The notes under the pieces are model-generated. The model was not told where the DNA came from, did no database searches, and was given only the letters and a program-made list of their open reading frames with translations. The position numbers were made by a program, and so were the translations under genes. A stretch of 33,052 bases of DNA from a virus: IMG/VR virus record IMGVR_UViG_3300030329_002906, positions 1 to 33,052 of that record; one strand, written 5' to 3'. Shown in pieces: positions 117-33,052 of this stretch; within the stretch, counting starts at the first letter, position 1; every line of letters begins with the position of its first letter.

Positions 117-256
117 AAAAATGGGTCGCAGTGCATCGATTGGCCAATAAATCTTGCCGTTTTTATTACCACTGTCACGCGCTCCGCGTTACGATGATTA
201 CATCGGAAACGGGAACAACCAAACAACTTCAACCCCCGTCCGATGGAGCAACCAAA

Positions 257-346
257 ATGACTAAGACTCGACACCTCATTCTATCTGCAATCGCCACACT
301 TGCTGCTGCTGGTTTTGCTCCCTTCATGCTCTCAATTGCAGCATAG
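257..346 (+). CDS. Small hydrophobic membrane peptide (29 aa)
   Basis: The peptide has a short basic start (MTKTRH) followed by one continuous hydrophobic stretch rich in Leu, Ile and Ala, as expected for a single membrane helix or uncleaved signal anchor. The start at 257 is chosen because GGAGC lies about 8 bases upstream. An in-frame ATG at 131 lacks such a site and would add a non-hydrophobic leader. Another tiny membrane peptide follows after 10 bases. The function is unknown. Small phage membrane peptides of this type can be inhibitors, holin-like or superinfection-related, but nothing here decides which. Confidence 0.55.
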   Translation: MTKTRHLILSAIATLAAAGFAPFMLSIAA

Positions 347-356
347 GGGGGCGGAC

Positions 357-437
357 ATGGACTCTATCAAGCGTATTGCTTTTCTATCCATCACCGGCTT
401 CACTGCTATTTCATACCTTTCATTGGTGCTAGTATGA
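357..437 (+). CDS. Small hydrophobic membrane peptide (26 aa)
   Basis: The peptide starts MDSIKR and continues as one hydrophobic segment to the end (…LSLVLV), so a single membrane helix is likely. A G-rich tract (GGGGGG) lies just upstream at a suitable ribosome-binding distance. Its stop overlaps the next start in an ATGA arrangement at 434-437, which implies translational coupling with the 98-residue gene that follows. This coupling is the main evidence that it is a real gene. No function can be assigned. Confidence 0.5.
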   Translation: MDSIKRIAFLSITGFTAISYLSLVLV

Positions 438-730
438 AAATCGAATTTGAAGGTTACACGGTTTACCTTTCTAAAATTGGCAATCATTCACACAGAGCAA
501 TTGTGAACTTGCACCTTGTCGGTTCAGTAGGTGGATTCTCTGTCGAAAGTGATTTGATTCTGATTGATTCAAACTATTCTAAAGCACTGAGAAGCCTATC
601 CTCGAAACTGGACGTGGTGGCGCTAACGCTCGAATACATGTCAAATGAGCCGGCCTGTTCTGATGTCGAGAAATTGAGCGAATCAGTATATTCCTATTCA
701 CTTCAAATTGGAGATTTTGACAATGCTTGA
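434..730 (+). CDS. Hypothetical protein (98 aa)
   Basis: I do not recognise this protein. Its first half is rich in beta-forming residues, with alternating hydrophobic positions (KIEFEGYTVYLSKIG, then FSVESDLILID). The second half looks helical. There are no cysteine clusters, signal peptide or membrane segment. It starts inside the stop of the upstream membrane peptide (ATGA) and overlaps the next gene by 8 bases, so it sits in a tightly packed cotranscribed group. It is probably a cytoplasmic early accessory protein, by inference only. Confidence 0.7.
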   Translation: MKIEFEGYTVYLSKIGNHSHRAIVNLHLVGSVGGFSVESDLILIDSNYSKALRSLSSKLDVVALTLEYMSNEPACSDVEKLSESVYSYSLQIGDFDNA

Positions 731-1019
731 TCTTGTCATGAAAGAAATGAACTTTGAGCTGTTGCGTGCATCTTGTAGCCGCTTGATCTTCTGTCACTGT
801 GGAGCCGTCCTTGACGTGCGTCGGGCTGTACTGGCCTACATTGACTATGATCGAGAGACCGTGGCTATGCATTGCATGTGTGGGGATTGTTGGGACAATG
901 GCAACGGGGCCCGGTTTCAAGGTGCCTACGATAACATCATACAGCGCTTGAGAAGCGGTGAGGCCGCAGGCAAGGATCCGGATCTATTTTCACTTGTGAT
1001 CACAGATGGGCGCGACTGA
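723..1019 (+). CDS. Hypothetical cysteine-rich protein (98 aa)
   Basis: The start at 723 is preferred over an upstream in-frame start at 708 because GGAG lies about 10 bases before it. Two cysteine clusters are visible: CHCG around residues 24-27, and an HCMCGDCW stretch around residues 49-56. Together they resemble a small zinc-binding fold. No DNA-binding or enzymatic motif is otherwise recognisable. It overlaps the preceding gene by 8 bases. A GC-rich hairpin follows directly after the stop. Confidence 0.65.
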   Translation: MLDLVMKEMNFELLRASCSRLIFCHCGAVLDVRRAVLAYIDYDRETVAMHCMCGDCWDNGNGARFQGAYDNIIQRLRSGEAAGKDPDLFSLVITDGRD

Positions 1020-1031
1020 ACCACCCACCCA

Positions 1032-1047
1032 GCCCCCCACGGGGGGC
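1032..1047 (+). other. GC-rich intergenic hairpin
   Basis: GCCCCC and GGGGGC pair around CACG just after a stop codon. No T-run follows, so this is not a standard intrinsic terminator. It may mark an mRNA processing or stability point between the genes at 723 and 1077. Confidence 0.4.
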
Positions 1048-1076
1048 GCAAACAATCCACCATAGGACATAGAGCA

Positions 1077-1370
1077 ATGACCCTTCCGGAGCACATAGAG
1101 ACCATGCAGGACGCAATCCACGAGCTAGGCCTTCAGGAGCAAATATGCGATGAATTGAAAGCAGAGCTTGATTGGATGATTGATAAGATGAACGAAGTTC
1201 TATTTTGTGTTGAGGCGATCAGACCGGGCATGTCCGAGCGCATGCGTGCCGCGATTTCTCAGGACGCAGACGAAAAGATCAAAGGTTCCACGAAACCCAA
1301 CAGATACCTGAGCAGGCTTATCGATGTATTGATGGCTGACAGTCACTTAAGCCCCGATGAACGGCCTTGA
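1077..1370 (+). CDS. Hypothetical helical protein (97 aa)
   Basis: This is a mostly alpha-helical, moderately acidic protein with heptad-like spacing over its first half (HIETMQDAIHELGLQEQ and onward). I recognise no family. It begins after the short GC-rich hairpin region and its start is preceded by AGAGCA, a weak ribosome binding site. It has no membrane segment and only two cysteines. It lies in a run of small plus-strand genes, so it is probably an early accessory protein, but its role is unknown. Confidence 0.6.
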   Translation: MTLPEHIETMQDAIHELGLQEQICDELKAELDWMIDKMNEVLFCVEAIRPGMSERMRAAISQDADEKIKGSTKPNRYLSRLIDVLMADSHLSPDERP

Positions 1371-1382
1371 ATTGTCCCCAGC

Positions 1383-1403
1383 CTACCCGACCTTGTCGGG
1401 TAG
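1383..1403 (+). other. Perfect 9-bp hairpin between genes
   Basis: CTACCCGAC (1383-1391) and GTCGGGTAG (1395-1403) form a perfect stem around a CTT loop. There is no T-run downstream. It sits between the genes at 1077 and 1441 and may be an RNA processing or stability element or a factor-assisted pause site. It is the second such GC-rich hairpin in this operon. Confidence 0.55.
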
Positions 1404-1440
1404 CCTAGATGACTATTCAACCCAACGGAGCAACACGGCA

Positions 1441-1704
1441 ATGACCTATCAACAATTGGCCTACTTCCTACTGGATACCATTAAAGGCGGACCGTACCCG
1501 CTCACCCGCGCGGTACTGGATGAAACGGATCCGGATATCGTGTCGGATATCATGTCGGATATCCTCGACTATGCGGATCGGCGTTCTCAAATTGGGGTAC
1601 CGGTGTTTACTGCCGAGGAATTCTCGCGGGCCCGTGTATTGCAGAATTGGACGAAATACCGAGATCAACCGGCCGCAGCATTCATTGATCGAGGTGCCAA
1701 ATGA
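1441..1704 (+). CDS. Hypothetical protein (87 aa)
   Basis: The start at 1441 is chosen because GGAGC lies about 10 bases upstream and the alternative start at 1357 would place the hairpin inside the gene. The protein is unrecognised. Around residues 31-41 it contains a short internal repeat (DIVSDIMSDILD) encoded by three GGATATC-containing 12-bp units, a local tandem duplication in the DNA. Its stop overlaps the start of a membrane peptide (ATGA at 1701-1704). Confidence 0.65.
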   Translation: MTYQQLAYFLLDTIKGGPYPLTRAVLDETDPDIVSDIMSDILDYADRRSQIGVPVFTAEEFSRARVLQNWTKYRDQPAAAFIDRGAK

Positions 1705-1781
1705 GTACCGTCCTACTGACCCTTGCTTGTGTGCTGCTATCGGCTGCATTCGGCCTATCCCTTTATCTCATGGAGTATTGA
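1701..1781 (+). CDS. Small membrane peptide (26 aa)
   Basis: The peptide starts MSTVLLTLA and is hydrophobic nearly to its end (…SLYLMEY), so one membrane helix is expected. It is coupled to the gene before it through an ATGA overlap, and the next gene starts 5 bases after its stop. It is the third peptide of this kind in the left operon, with those at 257 and 357. The function is unknown. The tight coupling on both sides supports translation. Confidence 0.5.
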   Translation: MSTVLLTLACVLLSAAFGLSLYLMEY

Positions 1782-1785
1782 GCAA

Positions 1786-1971
1786 ATGATGTATAAAGCA
1801 CCACAAGTGCCAGATGAAGCCCCCAACAGTGTAGATCCGGGTATCGTTCGATCGGGACTAGATGAATTGAACCCGGTAGATCGCTTCCATACCGTGTGCG
1901 ACGGGTCAACCCGTGGTCCTGTTATCGAGTTCACTAACCATGGCCAGCCAGATCCGGAGGTGGTCCGATGA
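1786..1971 (+). CDS. Short paralogue of the downstream Gp88-like gene (61 aa)
   Basis: The first dozen residues (MMYKAPQVPDEA) nearly match the start of the next protein (MTYKAPQVPEEA), and the two genes share a 24-bp exact direct repeat (1791-1814 and 1973-1996). The tail of the peptide, GPVIEFTNHG, matches GPVIGFPDHG near the C-terminus of the larger protein. The gene therefore looks like a copy that kept both ends and lost the cysteine-bearing core. It overlaps the larger gene by 4 bases (ATGA) and is in frame throughout. It may be a deletion remnant or a small regulator or competitor of the full-length protein. Confidence 0.6.
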   Translation: MMYKAPQVPDEAPNSVDPGIVRSGLDELNPVDRFHTVCDGSTRGPVIEFTNHGQPDPEVVR

Positions 1972-2684
1972 CGTATAAAGCACCACAAGTGCCAGAGGAG
2001 GCCGCCCTCTGGACGGGAACCACTAACAATACAAAGACAGGACCAGTTCCTACCCTGGCCATTGGTCGCACCCGCGAGGAGAGCAAGGCCTCGTGCGTGG
2101 GTTGCAAGCACCTTACGGACGGCACGTGCTACGCGCAGAACGGTACTGTGGCCATGGGTCACAATGCCATGGTCAAGGCCTATGCGAAAGACCCTGAACC
2201 GGAGCGTAGGTATAGCCTCAAGCGAGCGCTTGCCAATCGTAGGCTATCGGCGAAGATGGTAAGACTGGGCAGTATCGGCGACCCTGGCGCGCTACCCGGT
2301 GGATACCTGGCACGTGTGCTGGATGTCATCAAGGGGGAAGGGCTCGACCCGGTAGGATATACGCATCATTGGCGCGGCCGTCCAGATCTTGCGGGCCTGT
2401 TTATGGCGAGCGTTGACACGCTACAAGAAGCCGATCAAGCTATCCGTGCAGGGTTCCGCGCTGCCGTGGTGCTGCCGTGGGATTGGACTCAGCAACGGTT
2501 CAAGACTCCAGAAGGGAACGCGGGTATCGTTTGCCCTGCAATCCTCAAGCCGGACGTTGTGACGTGCAATACCTGTCGGTTGTGCAATGGGGCGAAAGCG
2601 GGCCCTGTGATCGGCTTTCCTGACCACGGGCCGAAAGTCCGCCATCTGATCCGTAAACTAAAGAGGAGCAATAACAATGAGTAA
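1968..2684 (+). CDS. Gp88-like cysteine-rich phage protein (238 aa)
   Basis: The protein resembles the phage Gene-product-88 family seen in many phages, whose function is not established. Visible landmarks are CVGCKHLTDGTCYA (Cys 43, 46 and 54), an IGDPG stretch near residue 103, GYTHHW at 130-135, MASVDT near 146, and a C-terminal set CPA…CNTCRLCNG (Cys 189, 200, 203 and 206). The cysteine spacing suggests a bound metal or iron-sulfur centre. GYTHHW and the cysteines recall metalloenzymes, but no reaction can be named. It follows a shortened copy of itself and overlaps the next gene by 8 bases. The assignment is from memory of the family pattern. Confidence 0.6.
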   Translation: MTYKAPQVPEEAALWTGTTNNTKTGPVPTLAIGRTREESKASCVGCKHLTDGTCYAQNGTVAMGHNAMVKAYAKDPEPERRYSLKRALANRRLSAKMVRLGSIGDPGALPGGYLARVLDVIKGEGLDPVGYTHHWRGRPDLAGLFMASVDTLQEADQAIRAGFRAAVVLPWDWTQQRFKTPEGNAGIVCPAILKPDVVTCNTCRLCNGAKAGPVIGFPDHGPKVRHLIRKLKRSNNNE

Positions 2685-2871
2685 GATCAACCCAACTAAG
2701 GCATACCAGATCACTATCAAGGGATTCTTAGTCTACCAACCAACCACGGATCAGAAGTGGGACACCGTCCATCACCAGGAAGTCGAGGAACTACTCCGTC
2801 TTATGCTGGCCACAGAGGCCTACCCTGAAGTGGAGATCGTAGAGCTGATCCCGGTAGGGGATGAACGATGA
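2677..2871 (+). CDS. Hypothetical protein (64 aa)
   Basis: A clear ribosome binding site (AGAGGAGC) lies before the start. The small protein has beta-type alternation at its start (AYQITIKGFLVYQ), then a helix, then a short strand (VEIVELIPV). That is a compact alpha/beta layout with no catalytic motif. It overlaps the Gp88-like gene by 8 bases and the next gene by 4 bases (ATGA). The function is unknown. Confidence 0.7.
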   Translation: MSKINPTKAYQITIKGFLVYQPTTDQKWDTVHHQEVEELLRLMLATEAYPEVEIVELIPVGDER

Positions 2872-3140
2872 GAGGTCCAGCCATAGCACTGGTGACAATG
2901 GTTCAATGCTTCAATACCGTCGACGATCCGATCGATGTCTCTACATGGACAAGGGAAGAGCGGATAGCCTTCCTGTATCCGAATGCGTTCTTCTTGATTC
3001 TGCTGGCTGTGATTGCCATCTGGACGTTGGAGAAGATCGTGAACGGTAAGGTAATCATCGATGACCTGGACGCCCTCGAAGAAGAGAACGAACTTCGGCG
3101 CGAGTTGAGGCGTCACTCCAGGTATCGCTATCGCAGGTAG
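2868..3140 (+). CDS. Membrane protein with basic C-terminus (90 aa)
   Basis: A strong hydrophobic segment (AFFLILLAVIAIWTL, about residues 40-54) predicts one membrane helix. The first 15 residues are also fairly hydrophobic and could be a second, weaker segment. The C-terminal third starts with acidic residues (DDLDALEEENE) and ends in arginines (RRHSRYRYRR). It starts in an ATGA overlap and is the last gene of the left operon before the control region. The role is unknown. Confidence 0.65.
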   Translation: MRGPAIALVTMVQCFNTVDDPIDVSTWTREERIAFLYPNAFFLILLAVIAIWTLEKIVNGKVIIDDLDALEEENELRRELRRHSRYRYRR

Positions 3141-26275: not shown

Positions 26276-27541
26276 CTATTCTCCTTCCTTTCCTTTACCC
26301 GCTTTGAGCCACGGGTACGCCATTCTACCATTAATCCGCTTCCTCTTCCCCTTTATGCATCCAAGACTGCGAAGGATAGCAGCGGCCCGCATACAATCGG
26401 ACTTCGTTTGGCTGTGGGCTTCTTTCCCGATGGCTTTCTCCAGGATCTCCCAGACAGTGAAGGCGTGGTCGTTTCTGATAAGCCAGGAAGATATTGCCAT
26501 CTCCCAAGAGTCCTGCTGACGAAACTCCTGCTGGATGATTTCCAACTCTTGCGATGCGCTGGCATCCAGCCACCATCTCTCATTGTTGCGGTACAAAGTT
26601 ACAGCCTCAGCCCAAAGCTGATCGATGTCTCTCTGGAGCTTTGGGATGCTTACTCTTCCACATTTGATGACATGCCACCTACGGTTGCCGGTGTTGTCAC
26701 TAAGGAACTCTGCTTCATTGGTGGTTCCAGCGAAGACGGTCTGGCGCTTCCGGGTGACCATGTTTCTTCCGTATGACGGGCGGAAGCGGTCTTGTCTTGA
26801 GCTTAGGAATGCCTTTACGGTTTCAGCCTCTCTGGGCCGGATAGACGCAAGCTCTGCAAGCTCATAAATCCAGATCCCTCCACTTAGAGCTTGGTAGCAG
26901 TCTTTTGACCGCATATCGAGGGCGGAATCGCTGAACCATTCGTCCTTTACCGCCATCGTCTTCAGGGCTGTGCTTTTCATGATCCCCTGGGGTCCAGCAA
27001 GAATGACTACCGTGTCGACCTTGCACCCAGGTTCAAATATCCGCGCCACCATACCGATCATCCAGCGCTTACCGATCTCCTGGTACAGTTCATTCTGGCC
27101 GCACCCGAAATACTCCTGGAACAAGTTGTCCACCCTTGGGGTGCCGTCCCAATAAACTCCGTCAAGATATTCTCGTACCGGGTGCCACTGGTTCTTCCTG
27201 GCCACATATCTGACTGCTTCTGCCACCTTGTTGGTAGGCATCTCAAGCTGGTAGACCCGGTCCAGCCACATCGCGATTCCAGTCTCGTTCTCGTCGATGA
27301 TCTCTTCGCCATCCACGTCGACAGTGTTGGCGAACTCGTTGTACTTGATCCGATCTTGCCATCTGGAATCATTGCTCAAGACCTTCACGGCATTGGTCAC
27401 CTTCGAGTAAGGCTTCCCCATCTCGGTGACGTTTCCGTCCTTATCTACCCGGTCCCTCTTGCGGTCCAGGGTTTGCCATACGTCCATCTCGAACAGGTCT
27501 GAACGTACCTTGCAGATCTCAGCTATCTTATTCAACTCCAT
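26276..27541 (-). CDS. vapE: VapE-type helicase (421 aa)
   Basis: Diagnostic segments are HPVREYLDGVYWDGTPRVD (about 120-138), a Walker A motif GPQGIMKST (173-181), a Walker B-like stretch GIWIYELAEL (222-231) and FAGTTNEAEFLSDNTGNRRW (270-289). These define the virulence-associated-E / D5-like superfamily 3 replicative helicases used by satellites and some phages at their origin. It would act with SSB and host polymerase in genome replication. It is the last gene of the minus operon. The start at 27541 has only a weak ribosome site and is overlapped by a short leader frame. Confidence 0.9.
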   Translation of the reverse strand: MELNKIAEICKVRSDLFEMDVWQTLDRKRDRVDKDGNVTEMGKPYSKVTNAVKVLSNDSRWQDRIKYNEFANTVDVDGEEIIDENETGIAMWLDRVYQLEMPTNKVAEAVRYVARKNQWHPVREYLDGVYWDGTPRVDNLFQEYFGCGQNELYQEIGKRWMIGMVARIFEPGCKVDTVVILAGPQGIMKSTALKTMAVKDEWFSDSALDMRSKDCYQALSGGIWIYELAELASIRPREAETVKAFLSSRQDRFRPSYGRNMVTRKRQTVFAGTTNEAEFLSDNTGNRRWHVIKCGRVSIPKLQRDIDQLWAEAVTLYRNNERWWLDASASQELEIIQQEFRQQDSWEMAISSWLIRNDHAFTVWEILEKAIGKEAHSQTKSDCMRAAAILRSLGCIKGKRKRINGRMAYPWLKAGKGKEGE

Positions 27542-27587
27542 CGGGTAGCCTCACATAGGTTATGATGGCGATGCCCCTTGTGGGCAT
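27528..27587 (-). CDS. Possible 19-residue leader peptide ahead of vapE
   Basis: On the minus strand an ATG at 27587 opens a 19-residue frame (start MPTRGIAIITYVRLPDG) that ends at TAA 27530-27528, overlapping the vapE start by 14 bases. It carries the GAGCAATG context seen at other starts in this operon, though without a clear GGAG. A 9-bp hairpin, GCGATGCCC/GGGCATTGC in plus-strand terms (27568-27590), covers its start. Translational coupling to vapE is plausible but unproven. Confidence 0.3.
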   Translation of the reverse strand: MPTRGIAIITYVRLPDGVE

Positions 27588-27606
27588 TGCTCAAAGTCAT
27601 TGCTCT

Positions 27607-27646
27607 GGGGGTGGGGGTCGGGTTGTCCCCCATCCCCTTTTCTTTT
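27607..27646 (+). terminator. Plus-strand intrinsic terminator inside the minus operon
   Basis: GGGGGTGGGGG (27607-27617) pairs with CCCCCATCCCC (27627-27637) with one G-T wobble, giving an 11-bp stem followed by TTTTCTTTT. The polarity is plus, opposite to the genes here. No plus-strand gene is evident upstream for 1.4 kb, so it would stop late transcripts that pass the convergence hairpin and cross vapE antisense. It ends right at the stop codon of the gene at 27645. Confidence 0.75.
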
Positions 27647-27890
27647 AGCAGTCTACGTCTTTAGTGGCCCAGCGACCAAAACAAACGACAACATCATAGG
27701 CTGCATCCTTCCCAGTAGCGCAGACCGCCACAGGCATCTTCTCGATTTCAAGAACGATCAGACCCTCGCGTGGGAGTAGGCGTAGGCGCCCTGCTGAGTA
27801 CCCCTCCAAACGCTCCCTGAGCTTGTATGCGTCGTTCCACGTCTGGACATATTCTGAGAAGGATGCAGCCATCTTTGTATTAACCGGCAT
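27645..27890 (-). CDS. Hypothetical protein (81 aa)
   Basis: The protein has a helical start and a beta-rich second half (LRLLPREGLIVLEIEKMPVAV, AYDVVVCFGRW), with three cysteines. It has no recognisable family. Its start overlaps the ssb stop (TGATG), which supports coupled expression with SSB. The stop lies at the edge of the plus-strand terminator. A role in replication or recombination follows only from the neighbours. Confidence 0.65.
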   Translation of the reverse strand: MPVNTKMAASFSEYVQTWNDAYKLRERLEGYSAGRLRLLPREGLIVLEIEKMPVAVCATGKDAAYDVVVCFGRWATKDVDC

Positions 27891-28264
27891 CAGAACGGCA
27901 TCTCATCGGCAACGCTCGTAGAAACCGGGCGCGCCTGCTGTTTGGGCGATTGGTTGTCGCCGGATGCAGTGAAGTGCCAGTCATCAACTTTAACATTGAG
28001 ACTCATTTTATCTACACCGTCCCGAGATTGATATGATCGGGTTGACAGGTCACCACTTATCCAAAGCTGCTTACCTTTCGTTGCATACTTCTGTAGGCTC
28101 TCACCCCTTTTGCCGAAGCAGGCACAGTCGAAATAGGTGGTGGTCTTGTTATCTCCCCATCCGCTATTGGACGCCATAGAGAAACTGGTAACAGTTCCCT
28201 TCGATGTCTCTCGCGTTTCAGGATCTCGCGTGAGTCTTCCTAAGATGTTTACTTTTGCGGGCAT
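27890..28264 (-). CDS. ssb: Single-stranded DNA-binding protein (124 aa)
   Basis: It has an OB-fold pattern (NILGRLTRDPETRETSKGT, then SFSMASNSGWGDNKTTTYFDC, then LWISGDLSTRSYQSRDG) and a short linker. The acidic C-terminal tip is DEMPF, close to the bacterial SSB docking tail DDIPF, so it should recruit host repair and replication proteins. AGGAGAG precedes the start. It follows the Erf gene in the same operon, where it would coat single strands for annealing and replication. The length is shorter than the E. coli protein, typical for phage SSBs. Confidence 0.92.
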   Translation of the reverse strand: MPAKVNILGRLTRDPETRETSKGTVTSFSMASNSGWGDNKTTTYFDCACFGKRGESLQKYATKGKQLWISGDLSTRSYQSRDGVDKMSLNVKVDDWHFTASGDNQSPKQQARPVSTSVADEMPF

Positions 28265-28273
28265 TGCTCTCTC

Positions 28274-28996
28274 CTATTTAGAGTTTTTGTAGTTCTTGAT
28301 TGCTTCTCTGCCTTTAGGGCTCATTAGCCACTCCAGCATTCGAGAGTGTTCTGATGTTGTCATCTCGTCTGGCATCTTGGCCCCACGCATTTGACAGTAC
28401 GAGTTGATTACATCTTGTGTGTACCCATACCCCTTAACTGTTATCCAGAACTCCCTAATGTTGTCTTCCTGGGTTGGTCTTGGCTTGTTGTAGGTCTTCT
28501 TCTTCTCTGTACTGCTCCACTTGGTGTGATCCATGTCGTCAGTTGGGTTCACGCGGGGGGCAATGAGCAAATCACGGATCAGATACCCCAAGCTCGAAGT
28601 TCGGGCGCTGGCTATGGCTTTATCCAGTGGCTTTCCTTTTCCAGTAACTACGGGCCACTCCATCGTTAGTGTCCGGTCTTCACCGCAAAGGTGACTAAGA
28701 AGCCATGTCGTAACCAGGGTTGGCGGATCTCCTGGCGTGTATCTGATATTCAACTCAAGTGGAAACAGTGATAGCCCGTGCTCTCCACTCAGCTCTGTCC
28801 ACATAGACATCATGCTTTCAGCACTGGTGTAGTCGTAGTTGCTGAAGGTGTTCTTAGAGTCTTTATCGATCCGCTTTGCCCTCCACTGTGCAGCATGAAG
28901 CGCGGCAACAAGTCCACCATGCTTCTCTTTTGGTGGCGGCGGTACAGGCACGCCTGTGTCGTCTGACTTTTGAGTTGATTTCTTCTTTGCTGGCAT
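28274..28996 (-). CDS. erf: Erf-family single-strand annealing protein (240 aa)
   Basis: The N-terminal part shows a motif set of the ERF family: DSKNTFSNYDYTSAESMM, a Gly-Leu-Ser-Leu-Phe-Pro strand (GLSLFPLELNI), and KPLDKAIASARTSSLGYLIR with the conserved Ala, Ser and Tyr. ERF proteins anneal homologous single strands and promote recombination and circularisation in phages such as P22. The C-terminal domain is basic and helical. The ribosome site AGGAG precedes the start. SSB is encoded directly after it and RusA in the same operon. Confidence 0.85.
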   Translation of the reverse strand: MPAKKKSTQKSDDTGVPVPPPPKEKHGGLVAALHAAQWRAKRIDKDSKNTFSNYDYTSAESMMSMWTELSGEHGLSLFPLELNIRYTPGDPPTLVTTWLLSHLCGEDRTLTMEWPVVTGKGKPLDKAIASARTSSLGYLIRDLLIAPRVNPTDDMDHTKWSSTEKKKTYNKPRPTQEDNIREFWITVKGYGYTQDVINSYCQMRGAKMPDEMTTSEHSRMLEWLMSPKGREAIKNYKNSK

Positions 28997-29005
28997 TGCT
29001 TTCTC

Positions 29006-29719
29006 CTAATTTATTGCTCTTGCGAGGTCATAAAGCGACCCCCAGTATCCGCATGAGTTCTGATGATTGCATCGGGCTGTGGTCATGCGGTCCACGTCGA
29101 TATAGAACCAAATGCTCTTCTTTCCACAACGCGGGCAGACGACGCCAGATGCTTTCGGTGGCTCCCCAGACACCTTTGCCCCAAGCTCTCTGGCCATCGC
29201 CGCCCTGACAGCGGGCTCCCTTCTAAGCCGCGCCATCATTTCCCTCTCATAGTTGCTGGCATCCACGTCCAATGGTGGTGGAGCCTGTCTTCTCCGCCTC
29301 TCTCTTTCCTCCTGTTGCTCTTTGGCGATCCGTTCATACGTCTTGGCCTTAAGCCCCTCTTGAAGCCTTTCACGGGCGTTTCCGGGCGTTCCCGCAGTTG
29401 TCCATTTCTGTGGCTTTACTCCCCGTCTTACCCATCCAATGACGTTGTGACAGACCGCTTCCAGTTCATCGCACTCTGTGGCGATGCAAGTTGTGATGAT
29501 CTCCCCCATCACTTCCGCATCATGCTCTGATCTCTTTCCCTCCGGGTCATCGAGTCGAGGTGCCCCATTGATCAAGAATGCACCTTCAGAAGCTAATGCG
29601 TGCATAAGATCCAGTGCGTTCTCCCATAAACCAGTTTGCTCCAATAAGATAGTGTATTTAACAAGTTCCCTTGCCTCCTTCTCGTTGATAACTTCCAGTA
29701 GCTTCCTTCCTTCTGTCAT
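29006..29719 (-). CDS. Zinc-ribbon protein, possible primase-like domain (237 aa)
   Basis: The start is ATG 29719, overlapping the methyltransferase stop (ATGA). An upstream extension would be the methyltransferase read in a wrong frame. The C-terminus carries a zinc ribbon (Cys 195, Cys 198, then Cys 217 and Cys 223 near CNHQNSCGYW), a form found in primase and topoisomerase zinc domains. The middle is charged and helical (KEQQEERERRRRQ). With VapE it might supply a DNA-binding module for replication. No catalytic primase motif is visible. Confidence 0.7.
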   Translation of the reverse strand: MTEGRKLLEVINEKEARELVKYTILLEQTGLWENALDLMHALASEGAFLINGAPRLDDPEGKRSEHDAEVMGEIITTCIATECDELEAVCHNVIGWVRRGVKPQKWTTAGTPGNARERLQEGLKAKTYERIAKEQQEERERRRRQAPPPLDVDASNYEREMMARLRREPAVRAAMARELGAKVSGEPPKASGVVCPRCGKKSIWFYIDVDRMTTARCNHQNSCGYWGSLYDLARAIN

Positions 29720-30216
29720 TTTGGAATCTCGCAACCCCGAAACGTGGGGCCAAACACTTCCCACCACCCCCAAACAACCAAAGCAGATGGTGCTGGTGCT
29801 GAGTTTCCAGGGACTCCATCTGGTCCCACAAACCTGATCCTTCCCTTGATCAGGTATACGCATGCCGCTTTCATGCACCAGTCATGCCACCACCGGGTGT
29901 CAGTTCTGGCCATTATTAATGCCGTTACAATCTTTCCCTTGCGTGCCTCGTTGTGGCACTTCTTCATCCACTCTCCCAGTCCCCTGCCATACGGCGGGTT
30001 CAGCCAAACGCTTCGTACTCCTGGGTGTGATAGATCCCACTCCATACTAAGTGCGTTTTGCTCTGGTGTGATGTACCTCTTGCACTTGGTATTCTCTGCC
30101 GTTGCGGCAGCGTCGAGTTCATACTTGTACAAGCTATCGAAGTAGTCGAAGACATGTTGTGGCGTTCGCCAGTCATGCTTCTTCGATGCGAATAGTTGGT
30201 CACCGTTCCAGCTCAT
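29716..30216 (-). CDS. dam: Phage N6-adenine DNA methyltransferase (166 aa)
   Basis: It has the phage Dam-like family pattern: DWRTPQ near residues 15-20, ELDAAATAENTKC near 33-45, and a catalytic NPPY motif (WLNPPYG, 73-76 of this start). It would transfer methyl groups from S-adenosylmethionine to adenine, probably in GATC. ATG 30216 overlaps the upstream stop and has AGGA 9 bases before it. In-frame starts at 30225 and 30234 are alternatives. Methylation may protect viral DNA from restriction or mark replicated DNA. Confidence 0.85.
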   Translation of the reverse strand: MSWNGDQLFASKKHDWRTPQHVFDYFDSLYKYELDAAATAENTKCKRYITPEQNALSMEWDLSHPGVRSVWLNPPYGRGLGEWMKKCHNEARKGKIVTALIMARTDTRWWHDWCMKAACVYLIKGRIRFVGPDGVPGNSAPAPSALVVWGWWEVFGPTFRGCEIPK

Positions 30217-30452
30217 TTTTGCCATCCTGGGCACTCAATTGTTGAGTCTTTCCCTTCATTTCTCCACATGCTCTGAAGGAATATGACAATGCCTGTTGAC
30301 AGGTCTTCTGCCGCGTACTGCATTTCACTTGATAAGTTCGGGAACACGTTGTCGATCTTCAACATCCTTTGGCAACCGCTCTGCCCAGCGTGGGGGAAGA
30401 GTCTTCCGTCTGGATTCGGGCCGTGACGGCATGTGTCGCATTGTTTCGCCAT
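30213..30452 (-). CDS. Small cysteine-rich protein (79 aa)
   Basis: ATG 30452 has a strong GGAGG ribosome site 7 bases before it, which sets the start. The product has a CDTCRHG pair near the beginning, CQ near residue 27 and another Cys near the end, so metal binding is possible. It overlaps the preceding gene by 128 bases in another frame and the next by 4 bases (ATGA). The function is unknown. Such small zinc-finger proteins are common in phage early operons. Confidence 0.65.
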   Translation of the reverse strand: MAKQCDTCRHGPNPDGRLFPHAGQSGCQRMLKIDNVFPNLSSEMQYAAEDLSTGIVIFLQSMWRNEGKDSTIECPGWQK

Positions 30453-30600
30453 AGTTTTCCTCCATCTTCCTAATAGACAACTGCGCCTTAAAGTCTGCAA
30501 CTCTTCGCGTTAGGCCCCCGTCGAACTCCATTATCGCAGACCGTTCCAAATACAGGGCTGTCCAGTCGTCATCCCATTGCCAAACGTCAACTGGCAGCAT
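30325..30600 (-). CDS. Hypothetical protein overlapping its neighbour (91 aa)
   Basis: The start at 30600 lies 14 bases inside the rusA end, with AGAGG before it. The first half is aromatic and acidic (MLPVDVWQWDDDWTALYLER) and looks like a genuine fold. The second half is basic (RPESRRKTLPPRWAERLPK) and lies over the start of the next gene in a different frame. Either both are translated or the true end of this gene is altered by a base error. A third copy of CTAATAGACAAC lies within it. Confidence 0.5.
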   Translation of the reverse strand: MLPVDVWQWDDDWTALYLERSAIMEFDGGLTRRVADFKAQLSIRKMEENYGETMRHMPSRPESRRKTLPPRWAERLPKDVEDRQRVPELIK

Positions 30601-31057
30601 TCCAAACCTCTACGTCGACCTGCACAAATGGCAGCTCAGATGTCTTGTCTTTGCGCTCACCCTTGATTGCACCAAGCCATTTGGTAGCCCTGATCTCTGA
30701 CACCTGGGCGTCATCGGTCCAGAGGCAATCCAAACCATCGCCGACACTCTTGATCAGGTTGTCCAAGTCGCTTTTAGTCGTCTTGAGCATCCTCCCTGCC
30801 GGGTCTTTCTTCCTAAACTTTGTCTGGGGCCTCTTATAGACAGCAGTGATGGTCACCCTCACAGGCGTGGCGCGAGCTATTGGCACGTCCAGACCCCACG
30901 ATGCCTTCTCTGCAATATCGGAAACCAACTGTAGATACCTGCGGGTTTTGCTTGGAAGCCTCGCACCACCGGTGTACCGGTTGAAACGGGGCCTTCCCAT
31001 GGCTACACCTTCTCCTGGTAGTTTCAGAGATATGAAATGTTCCCAACTACCCTCCAT
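30587..31057 (-). CDS. rusA: RusA-type Holliday junction resolvase (156 aa)
   Basis: The catalytic block KSDLDNLIKSVGDGLDCLW followed by DDAQV and a downstream Lys (about residues 95-126) is the RusA signature. Its acidic residues bind the metal ion for junction cleavage. The N-terminus shows GEGVAMGRPRFNRYTG. It would resolve recombination intermediates produced with the Erf protein and SSB, and may trim replicative forms before packaging. The start at 31057 is preferred because GGAGG is 4-5 bases before it; ATG 31069 is the alternative. Confidence 0.88.
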   Translation of the reverse strand: MEGSWEHFISLKLPGEGVAMGRPRFNRYTGGARLPSKTRRYLQLVSDIAEKASWGLDVPIARATPVRVTITAVYKRPQTKFRKKDPAGRMLKTTKSDLDNLIKSVGDGLDCLWTDDAQVSEIRATKWLGAIKGERKDKTSELPFVQVDVEVWNAAS

Positions 31058-31313
31058 TGCTCCTCCCATACGGGCCGCGTTTGCTGCCGGTATTGGGGTT
31101 TACCCATTCAGTAGAGATATTCTGCTCACACCAGCGGGCATCGTAGTCTTCTGCAAATGCCATCGCATCGTGTAGCTCAGTGAAGTTCCCAAGGACCACA
31201 GACCCATCGCATACCGTGTAATCAAAGTCACCGATGTATACGATTAGATCTGTAGCCGATAGCACGTGTGCGAAGAACCCACAGTCGTTTACGTCCAAAG
31301 TCTCCCATGCCAT
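31047..31313 (-). CDS. Hypothetical protein (88 aa)
   Basis: This is an aromatic, acidic protein (start MAWETLDVNDCGFFAHVLSA) with beta segments near VLSATDLIVYIGDFDY and a flexible Gly/Asn/Arg-rich end that overlaps the start of rusA. AAGGAGTAAGAGCA precedes the start. I recognise no family. It lies between the HTH gene and RusA, so a role in regulation or DNA metabolism is possible. Confidence 0.65.
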   Translation of the reverse strand: MAWETLDVNDCGFFAHVLSATDLIVYIGDFDYTVCDGSVVLGNFTELHDAMAFAEDYDARWCEQNISTEWVNPNTGSKRGPYGRSNGG

Positions 31314-31325
31314 TGCTCTTACTCC

Positions 31326-31595
31326 TTAGTCGTCTACGATTGCCCAGTACGCAACCAACTTGCCCATGTTGGCCTGCACGATTCCCAATGCCCCAGCAAG
31401 TTGCCAGACCTGCACAACATTTGGCGTGCGTCGTCTGGATTCCCAGCCCGCGATAGTCGAGCCAGATACTTGGCACCGCTCACCGAGTGCCCTACACGAC
31501 AAACCAAGGTCGAGCCTGAGCTTCTTGGGGTTGATATACCTGGTTCCCATAATGGCGTTCATACCCAGTTTGTGTGGTTTGAATTTGAGATTCAT
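31326..31595 (-). CDS. Helix-turn-helix (XRE-like) DNA-binding protein (89 aa)
   Basis: The start at 31595 overlaps the upstream stop (ATGA). A longer frame exists but would run into that gene. Residues about 25-75 fit an XRE/Cro fold: LRLDLGLSCRALGERCQVSG as helices 1-2, STIAGWESRRRTPN as the recognition turn, then VVQVWQLAGALG. It probably binds one of the dyad sites near the origin or the late promoter. It is short, with no additional domain, as expected for a Cro-like regulator. The target is unknown. Confidence 0.75.
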   Translation of the reverse strand: MNLKFKPHKLGMNAIMGTRYINPKKLRLDLGLSCRALGERCQVSGSTIAGWESRRRTPNVVQVWQLAGALGIVQANMGKLVAYWAIVDD

Positions 31596-32101
31596 TTCTT
31601 CTCCAGTTGTTGTTGTTGCCAGTAGAGGAATCCATCCTCTGCTATCTCTCCCCATTCCTCCGAATGCATGCCGTTTTCCTCCCTGAAAAGGGTGATTGCC
31701 ATCTCAACCGACATCCCCTCGGGTGTGCAAGTGGCTGAGATGACCTCTGCGCCCACTTCAAGCTCATGCTCCTCCATCCATAGCTTATAGACAACATGCT
31801 CCCCGAGTGTGTAATACAGATCTTCGACCCTCATTCCCGGTAGTTCCACGTGAAACCTGTGTCCTGGGTCCGGTGTGTTCCACTCTGCTGAACGGTAGAC
31901 CGTCCCATCCACCTCGGTATCTACCAGTTCGTACATGTTTATTTCGTCGTAAGCCCATGCCTCGACCAATAGCTGACACCTCTTCTCAAACTCGCATATG
32001 ATGTCTTTACGGTAGGTCGGCATCTTGTCTGGCGATATGTTGTAGAAGTCATAGCCAGCGCCTACAAGCGTATTGATGATCTGTTCCATGCTCAATGTCA
32101 T
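31592..32101 (-). CDS. Hypothetical protein, first gene of the minus operon (169 aa)
   Basis: The product is strongly acidic, with helices (MTLSMEQIINTLVGAGYDF) and a central beta region around a TVYRSAEWN segment. It ends with a Gln/Lys tail (YWQQQQLEKK). No family is recognised. TGGAG lies 6 bases before the start. As the first gene after the origin-like region it would be made earliest. The acidity is compatible with a DNA mimic or anti-restriction protein, which is only a suggestion. Confidence 0.65.
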   Translation of the reverse strand: MTLSMEQIINTLVGAGYDFYNISPDKMPTYRKDIICEFEKRCQLLVEAWAYDEINMYELVDTEVDGTVYRSAEWNTPDPGHRFHVELPGMRVEDLYYTLGEHVVYKLWMEEHELEVGAEVISATCTPEGMSVEMAITLFREENGMHSEEWGEIAEDGFLYWQQQQLEKK

Positions 32102-32236: not shown

Positions 32237-32303
32237 AACGACGGCGCAACTGCTCTCATCGCGCAAGTTAAGCTCTGATTTGGCTCCAAATTGCCAAGAT
32301 GGC

Positions 32304-32342
32304 CTAATAGACAACATCGAAATTGCTCTAATAGACAACATC
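32304..32342. repeat. Two copies of CTAATAGACAACATC
   Basis: The 15-mer occurs at 32304-32318 and 32328-32342, 24 bases apart. Twelve of its bases (CTAATAGACAAC) recur at 30470-30481 inside a minus-strand gene. It may be a protein site next to the origin. Confidence 0.7.
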
Positions 32343-32370
32343 ATTTTCTCCATTTTTTTCGAAAAGCAAG

Positions 32371-32775
32371 GTTTAAACTACCTTTTCGAGGAGTCTCGAC
32401 GATAATATAGGTTAAAACTACCTTTTCGATGACTCTTCGATAACCTACTTAGAACCTACCTTTTCGATGACCTGTCGATATTGCAGTTAGAACCTACGTT
32501 TTCGATGACTATTTGATAACGTGCTTTGAACCTACCTTTTCGTTTACCGTCCGATAATGAAGGTTTGACCTACGTTTTCGTTTACCGTCTGATAATGCAC
32601 ATTGAACCTACCTTTTCGTTTACCGTCTGATAGTGTAGTTAGAACCTACCTTTTCGTTCGCTGCTTTATAATAACGGTTAAACCTGCGTTATCGTTGACC
32701 GTCTGATAGTAACGGTTTAACCTACGTTATCGGTTAGTGTGCTCGATAATGTAGGTTCAACCTATGATATTCCGG
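32371..32775. repeat. Ten to eleven 38-bp iterons, candidate replication origin
   Basis: The conserved core C(C/G)TT(T/A)TCG recurs at 32381, 32421, 32459, 32497, 32535, 32573, 32611, 32649, 32687 and 32725, with a decayed unit near 32765. Spacing is 38 bases except the outermost, which are 40. Each unit has GATAAT or a variant about 20 bases after the core start and a GGTTnnAACCT-like junction. Such regular arrays bind replication initiators. With the AT-rich stretch beside it and VapE in the genome, a P4-like origin is the most likely meaning. Confidence 0.75.
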
Positions 32776-32800: not shown

Positions 32801-32901
32801 TTGGCACGGTTCGTGCAAGGCGCGTAACTTGGCACGGTTCGTGCATGCGTTTAAGTCGGCACGGTTCGTGCATAGTGCGTAAACTTGGCACGACAATTGC
32901 A
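32801..32901 (+). repeat. Four-copy TTGGCACG-N4-GTGCA array
   Basis: Copies lie at 32801-32817, 32829-32845, 32856-32872 (TC for TT) and 32885-32901, spaced 28, 27 and 29 bases. The first three are TTGGCACGGTTCGTGCA or close to it and contain the dyad GCACG-GTT-CGTGC. The fourth reads TTGGCACGACAATTGCA and loses the dyad but gains a full sigma-54 match. Confidence 0.85.
32886..32901 (+). promoter_or_regulatory. Consensus sigma-54 (RpoN) type promoter
   Basis: TGGCACGACAATTGCA with the preceding T fits every defined position of the -24/-12 consensus YTGGCACGrNNNTTGCW. Transcription would start near 32912 and run towards the terminal repeat and, if the ends are joined, to the left operon at 257. 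Sigma-54 promoters need a distant activator site; the iterons lie 110-520 bases upstream, a suitable range. Function is unproven. Confidence 0.5.
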
Positions 32902-32919
32902 ATTACGCGCGTACGTTCC

Positions 32920-33052
32920 TTTATTTGTTCGAGGTGTTCGAGGTGTTCGAGGTGTTCGAGGTGTTCGAGGTGTTCGAGGTGTTCGACCGTTTAAACCATT
33001 TCGCACCACACGATCGTCGTCTGAGTACTAAGACGATCATTTTTTAAAATGG
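32920..33052. repeat. Right copy of imperfect terminal direct repeat
   Basis: This copy matches 1-124 but has six copies of TTCGAGGTG (32928-32981), T for G after the TTTAAACCATT segment, T for C in the hairpin loop, and T6A4 for T5A5 near its end. It includes the hairpin GATCGTC (33012-33018) / GACGATC (33032-33038) with T6. Confidence 0.9.
33012..33045 (+). terminator. Right-end copy of the hairpin plus T-run
   Basis: The same 7-bp stem as at 84-110 is followed here by A and T6 (33040-33045). It lies about 100-135 bases after the expected sigma-54 start, so a transcript from there could end here as a short RNA. Confidence 0.45.

Follow-up and report, generated by a model that had tools for sequence, protein, structure and literature searches.

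Organization of the locus

The stretch of DNA analysed here, hereafter the window, is the whole of IMG/VR record IMGVR_UViG_3300030329_002906 (33,052 bases, positions 1-33,052). Its plus-strand genes extend from approximately 256 to 26209, beginning with a block of small genes (256-3140) that includes a DUF7227/phrog_2554 gene (1968-2684) and continuing with terminase, portal, capsid, and tail genes. A replication operon on the minus strand (26276-32101) encodes a VapE-like helicase, SSB, Erf, a Dam-like methylase, a protein that is RusA-like by inspection, and a cI/Cro-like HTH protein (31326-31655, minus strand). The two ends of the window, 1-124 and 32929-33052, are direct repeats of each other with 94% identity across 124 bases and contain the 9-bp tandem TGTTCGAGG. 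This repeat makes it probable that the virus is circular or has terminal redundancy; because the repeat is inexact, the record is classed as linear. If the contig ends are joined, an array of four sigma-54-like sites at 32801-32901 lies between the minus-strand replication operon, behind it, and the plus-strand small-gene block, ahead of it, and points at the latter.

Several other features surround the array. An iteron-like array of about ten 38-bp repeats (AACCTACCTTTTCG...) at 32401-32742 is separate from the sigma-54-like sites and is a candidate replication origin. Similar repeats also adjoin the replication operon in the closest near-complete relative, IMGVR_UViG_3300029787_000194 (L010/L012; approximately 77% DNA identity in structural genes). 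The sequence CTAATAGACAACATC occurs twice within 32300-32345, has the counterpart GTGTTGTCTATTAGAG in L012, and is a possible operator of the replication operon. Six units of the 9-bp tandem, together with a weak terminator-like hairpin (33016-33037) with a T-run, occupy 32917-33052 on the plus strand. Upstream of the small-gene block, a 13-bp dyad, ACGCG-CTC-CGCGT, with a -10-like TACGAT (178-196, plus strand) may constitute a regulated sigma-70-type promoter of that block. A consensus scan missed this candidate; a dyad beside a -10-like box was also found upstream of the block on reading the sequences of L012, L009, and L007. The leader RNA was predicted to be no more stable in structure than its shuffled counterparts.

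The array comprises four sigma-54-like sites

The sequence-only reading had described four evenly spaced copies, and re-reading the sequence confirmed start-to-start distances of 28, 27, and 29 bp. All four are on the plus strand: copies 1 (32801-32817) and 2 (32829-32845) consist of the same letters, TTGGCACGGTTCGTGCA, copy 3 (32856-32872) is TCGGCACGGTTCGTGCA, and copy 4 (32885-32901) is TTGGCACGACAATTGCA. In each of them GG and GC are separated by ten bases. The claim that copy 4 carries the full sigma-54 -24/-12 consensus (mrNrYTGGCACG-N4-TTGCWNNw; PMC2725144) was borne out, as it matches YTGGCACGN4TTGCW perfectly; if this copy fires, the transcript is predicted to start near 32911. Copies 1-3 had been described as dyads that depart from the consensus at the T of the -12 element. 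They are indeed 5+3+5 dyads, GCACG-GTT-CGTGC, with 10 of 13 positions symmetric, but the differing base is at -15 (TTGC to GTGC), and the T at -14 and the GC are intact. Copy 3 also departs from the consensus at the T before GG, beginning with TCGG and not, as first read, with TTGG. Copy 4 is not a dyad (6 of 13 positions symmetric).

Across the window, YTGGCACGN4TTGCW yielded one perfect site and two sites with one mismatch, all three inside the array. Dinucleotide shuffling (100 replicates) produced on average 0 perfect sites and 0.13 one-mismatch sites; a perfect site appeared in no replicate, nor did any replicate contain three sites with one mismatch or fewer. As tandem duplicates, the four copies cannot be counted as independent; the most surprising feature of the array is the full consensus match of copy 4.

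We then scored both strands of the window (66,072 positions) with a matrix built from 135 ChIP-mapped Escherichia coli sigma-54 sites (PMC4591121). The four copies ranked first to fourth, with scores of 19.5 for copy 4, 16.6 for each of copies 1 and 2, and 14.4 for copy 3. These correspond to the 99th, 91st, 91st, and 61st percentiles among the bound sites of E. coli (leave-one-out median of real sites, 13.9). G at -15 is found in 5 of the 135 bound sites, CTGGCACGCGATGTGCA and the hydN promoter among them, and copies 1-3 therefore count as sigma-54-like too. Positions 3, 4, 14, 15, and 16 of a sigma-54 site seldom deviate (PMC4591121); numbered on the 17-mer these are GG, T, G, and C, all of which are kept in copies 1-3. 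The predicted specificity of the array for RpoN is strongly supported by its sequence; occupancy, firing, and an activator are inferred.

Tandem sigma-54-like arrays recur in unrelated viruses

A pattern scan of viral contigs for two tandem sigma-54-like sites returned at least 120 stretches, compared with 10 for a control pattern whose internal spacer was one base longer, which indicates that the length of the internal spacer matters across this class. Among the matches listed, 119 usable loci sorted into 64 groups that share no DNA similarity with each other; the membership of one group was 39. The period of these 119 loci peaks at 26-28 bp and broadly covers 25-29 bp, compared with 27-29 bp in the window. 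Positions that the search had left free are still sigma-54-like in the viral matches listed (T before GG, Y, R, and W), and most of these matches have no dyad. GTGC and TTGC copies are mixed within one array, as in the window, at four loci (L018, L019, L022, and L288). With at least two sites, a period within 23-35 bp, and, if the ends join, a divergent intergenic location, the window array belongs to this class. When a similar pattern was run over bacterial and archaeal genomes (257 Gb), it had only 70 matches, which on inspection were for the most part hairpins or repeats within coding sequence; as the two search patterns differ slightly, the comparison with the viral count is rough. In a set of related viruses (L110, L112, L115, L122, L142, L147, and L151), sigma-54-like sites are interleaved on both strands with a period of 46-47 bp.

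Searched as DNA against named phages, the window array gave no match, and other arrays gave only weak, short ones; the plasmid search gave a single weak Streptomyces match. Relatives of the early genes were examined in four named phages, one of them uncultured, and no array was seen near those genes. We found no report of such arrays in the open literature, subscription papers and preprints being outside this search. Sigma-54 is encoded by none of 49 array viruses, and a search of the same 49 for the activator domain (AAA+) gave one match only, a phage-encoded activator being otherwise absent.

Gene context across the class was obtained with a simple codon-usage gene caller, which gave plausible genes when run on the window. 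For 111 intergenic arrays among the matches listed, the gene behind the array is on the opposite strand in a ratio of 84:7 and the gene ahead is on the same strand in a ratio of 66:15. We rejected these counts as proof of promoter direction, as they show divergent placement alone. It is instead the gene content that indicates that the arrays point mostly from late to early genes: in the matches listed, terminase, endolysin, or peptidase (lysis) genes lie behind the arrays, and GP88, DUF7227/phrog_2554, ArdC, primase, or helicase genes lie ahead. At L199, L106, and L120 the array is followed on its own strand, after 1-1.4 kb, by a DUF7227 gene, with a small opposite-strand gene in between at L106 and L120. 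A downstream terminator was considered as a class feature and rejected, with 16 of 91 at that position against 12, 8, and 8 at the other three.

The arrays are distant from start codons

Sigma-54 control of a phage operon had been proposed from the sequence. The site reading on which this proposal was based is well supported for all four copies, given the four top ranks in the window, the GG-N10-GC class, and the period, but the distance expected of a promoter was not found: none of the four sites lies within 15-65 bp of a start codon, and the first gene is hundreds of base pairs away. Among the matches listed, class arrays are likewise separated from the next start codon by no less than 114 bp. 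Sigma-70-like promoters between array and gene exceed shuffled expectation on both sides of the class arrays (36 of 61 versus 12.8, and 52 of 71 versus 21.4).

Compared with bacterial RpoN -24/-12 elements, the phage arrays share the GG-N10-GC geometry, YTGGCAYR-N4-TTGCW, the flank preferences, and scores within the E. coli range, but differ in being clustered in tandem with a 25-29 bp period, in divergent regions, and far from start codons. In the E. coli table of PMC4591121, intergenic sense sigma-54 sites appear as single entries, usually at 20-100 bp from the gene.

Three viruses of the same class and with the same motif as the window (G019, G057, and G020) differ from it in that single sigma-54-like sites in the sense orientation precede start codons by 22-61 bp. 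In the interval 15-65 bp ahead of starts, sense sites number 11, 7, and 3, respectively, versus 1.4, 0.6, and 0.3 expected, and, judged by sequence and position, they are what working sigma-54 promoters would be expected to look like. Many other sites in G019 are antisense to the genes they sit between. All three (G019, L243-L245; G057, L246-L247; G020, L263-L265) contain many dispersed sense sites, a pattern that would suit sigma-54 control of many of their genes.

The array is absent from the closest relative

L010/L012, the sole relative that covers the array region, lacks the array, and the array is thus not essential to this phage lineage. Unrelated viruses share the asymmetric consensus and not the dyad. 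The small-gene block (256-3140) is inverted relative to its counterpart in L010/L012 (L012 1620-4984), which has a GP88 gene, and the sequences upstream in L007 and L009 point to the same inversion. Given the missing array and the opposite orientation of the block, the array may have arrived together with a rearrangement. A host search by protein similarity gave mixed hosts with no single answer, and a search for the capsid in bacterial genomes returned no relative.

Interpretation of the array

Phage transcription is usually described in terms of sigma-70 promoters, phage polymerases, and phage sigma factors. For the window, the most likely interpretation of these letters is that the array binds host sigma-54 RNA polymerase, and we consider it quite probable that class arrays in general are bound by it. 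Beyond binding, we lean slightly towards the window array being a cluster of RpoN sites from which the small-gene block receives additional, conditional transcription. Host sigma-54 polymerase would occupy the copies, copy 4 best, and an active host enhancer-binding protein would elicit transcription from near 32911 into the block with its DUF7227 gene, adding to that from the block's own sigma-70-type promoter. A copy-number effect, in which sigma-54 polymerase is held or titrated, may coexist with this.

The main rival is that such trapping is itself the function: RpoN polymerase would be held as closed complexes that seldom open, at sites multiplied by the replicating genomes, and sigma-54 would be drawn from host stress, nitrogen, and phage-shock promoters, or polymerase would be held between the divergent operons. 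Multiple near-consensus sites at a period of 25-29 bp, which is close to the size of one bound sigma-54 polymerase complex, are consistent with a trap, as are the long distances to starts, the lack of a cognate activator gene, and the mixed orientations and antisense single sites of some viruses. However, a trap does not need most arrays to point from late to early genes, the sense sites at promoter distance in G019, G057, and G020 argue against it, and each genome copy brings four sites only. We regard this alternative as unlikely.

Rather improbable is an operator array, in which a phage regulator such as the HTH protein would bind GCACG-GTT-CGTGC and the likeness to sigma-54 sites would be accidental, a chance resemblance that the sequence-only reading had also raised. 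Phage repressor/Cro-type operators likewise form arrays of short dyads in divergent control regions, and the perfect dyads of copies 1-3, the nearby cI/Cro-like gene, and the similar-sized dyad at the small-block promoter all fit. This reading nevertheless fits less well overall: the dyad is not in every copy, as copy 4 lacks it and yet is the best sigma-54 site; most related arrays are not full dyads either, the asymmetric consensus being what unrelated viruses have in common; and the sites are not kept with the regulator, as L012 has an HTH protein 75% identical to that of the window and no array, though another regulator is possible. Finally, it is very improbable that the array is part of a replication origin or of a partition site (iterons) and plays no role in transcription: although the array adjoins the 38-bp repeats and the 9-bp tandem in a single intergenic region, L012 keeps the 38-bp repeats without a sigma-54-like array, and the class adjoins terminase and early operons of unrelated viruses.

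If host sigma-54 polymerase does use these sites as we favour, infection would be tied to the nutrient and stress state of the host without a phage-encoded sigma factor or activator, and the hosts of array phages must have rpoN. We suggest more tentatively, and at a little below even confidence, that many mostly uncultured phages share a regulatory device in which host sigma-54 sites are clustered at the boundary of late and early genes, either to poise sigma-54 polymerase or to titrate sigma-54. Dozens of unrelated phages would then sense the nitrogen, envelope-stress, and surface programmes of their hosts, or disturb them, and the arrays hint at a little-studied link between phages and a host regulator of stress and nutrition.
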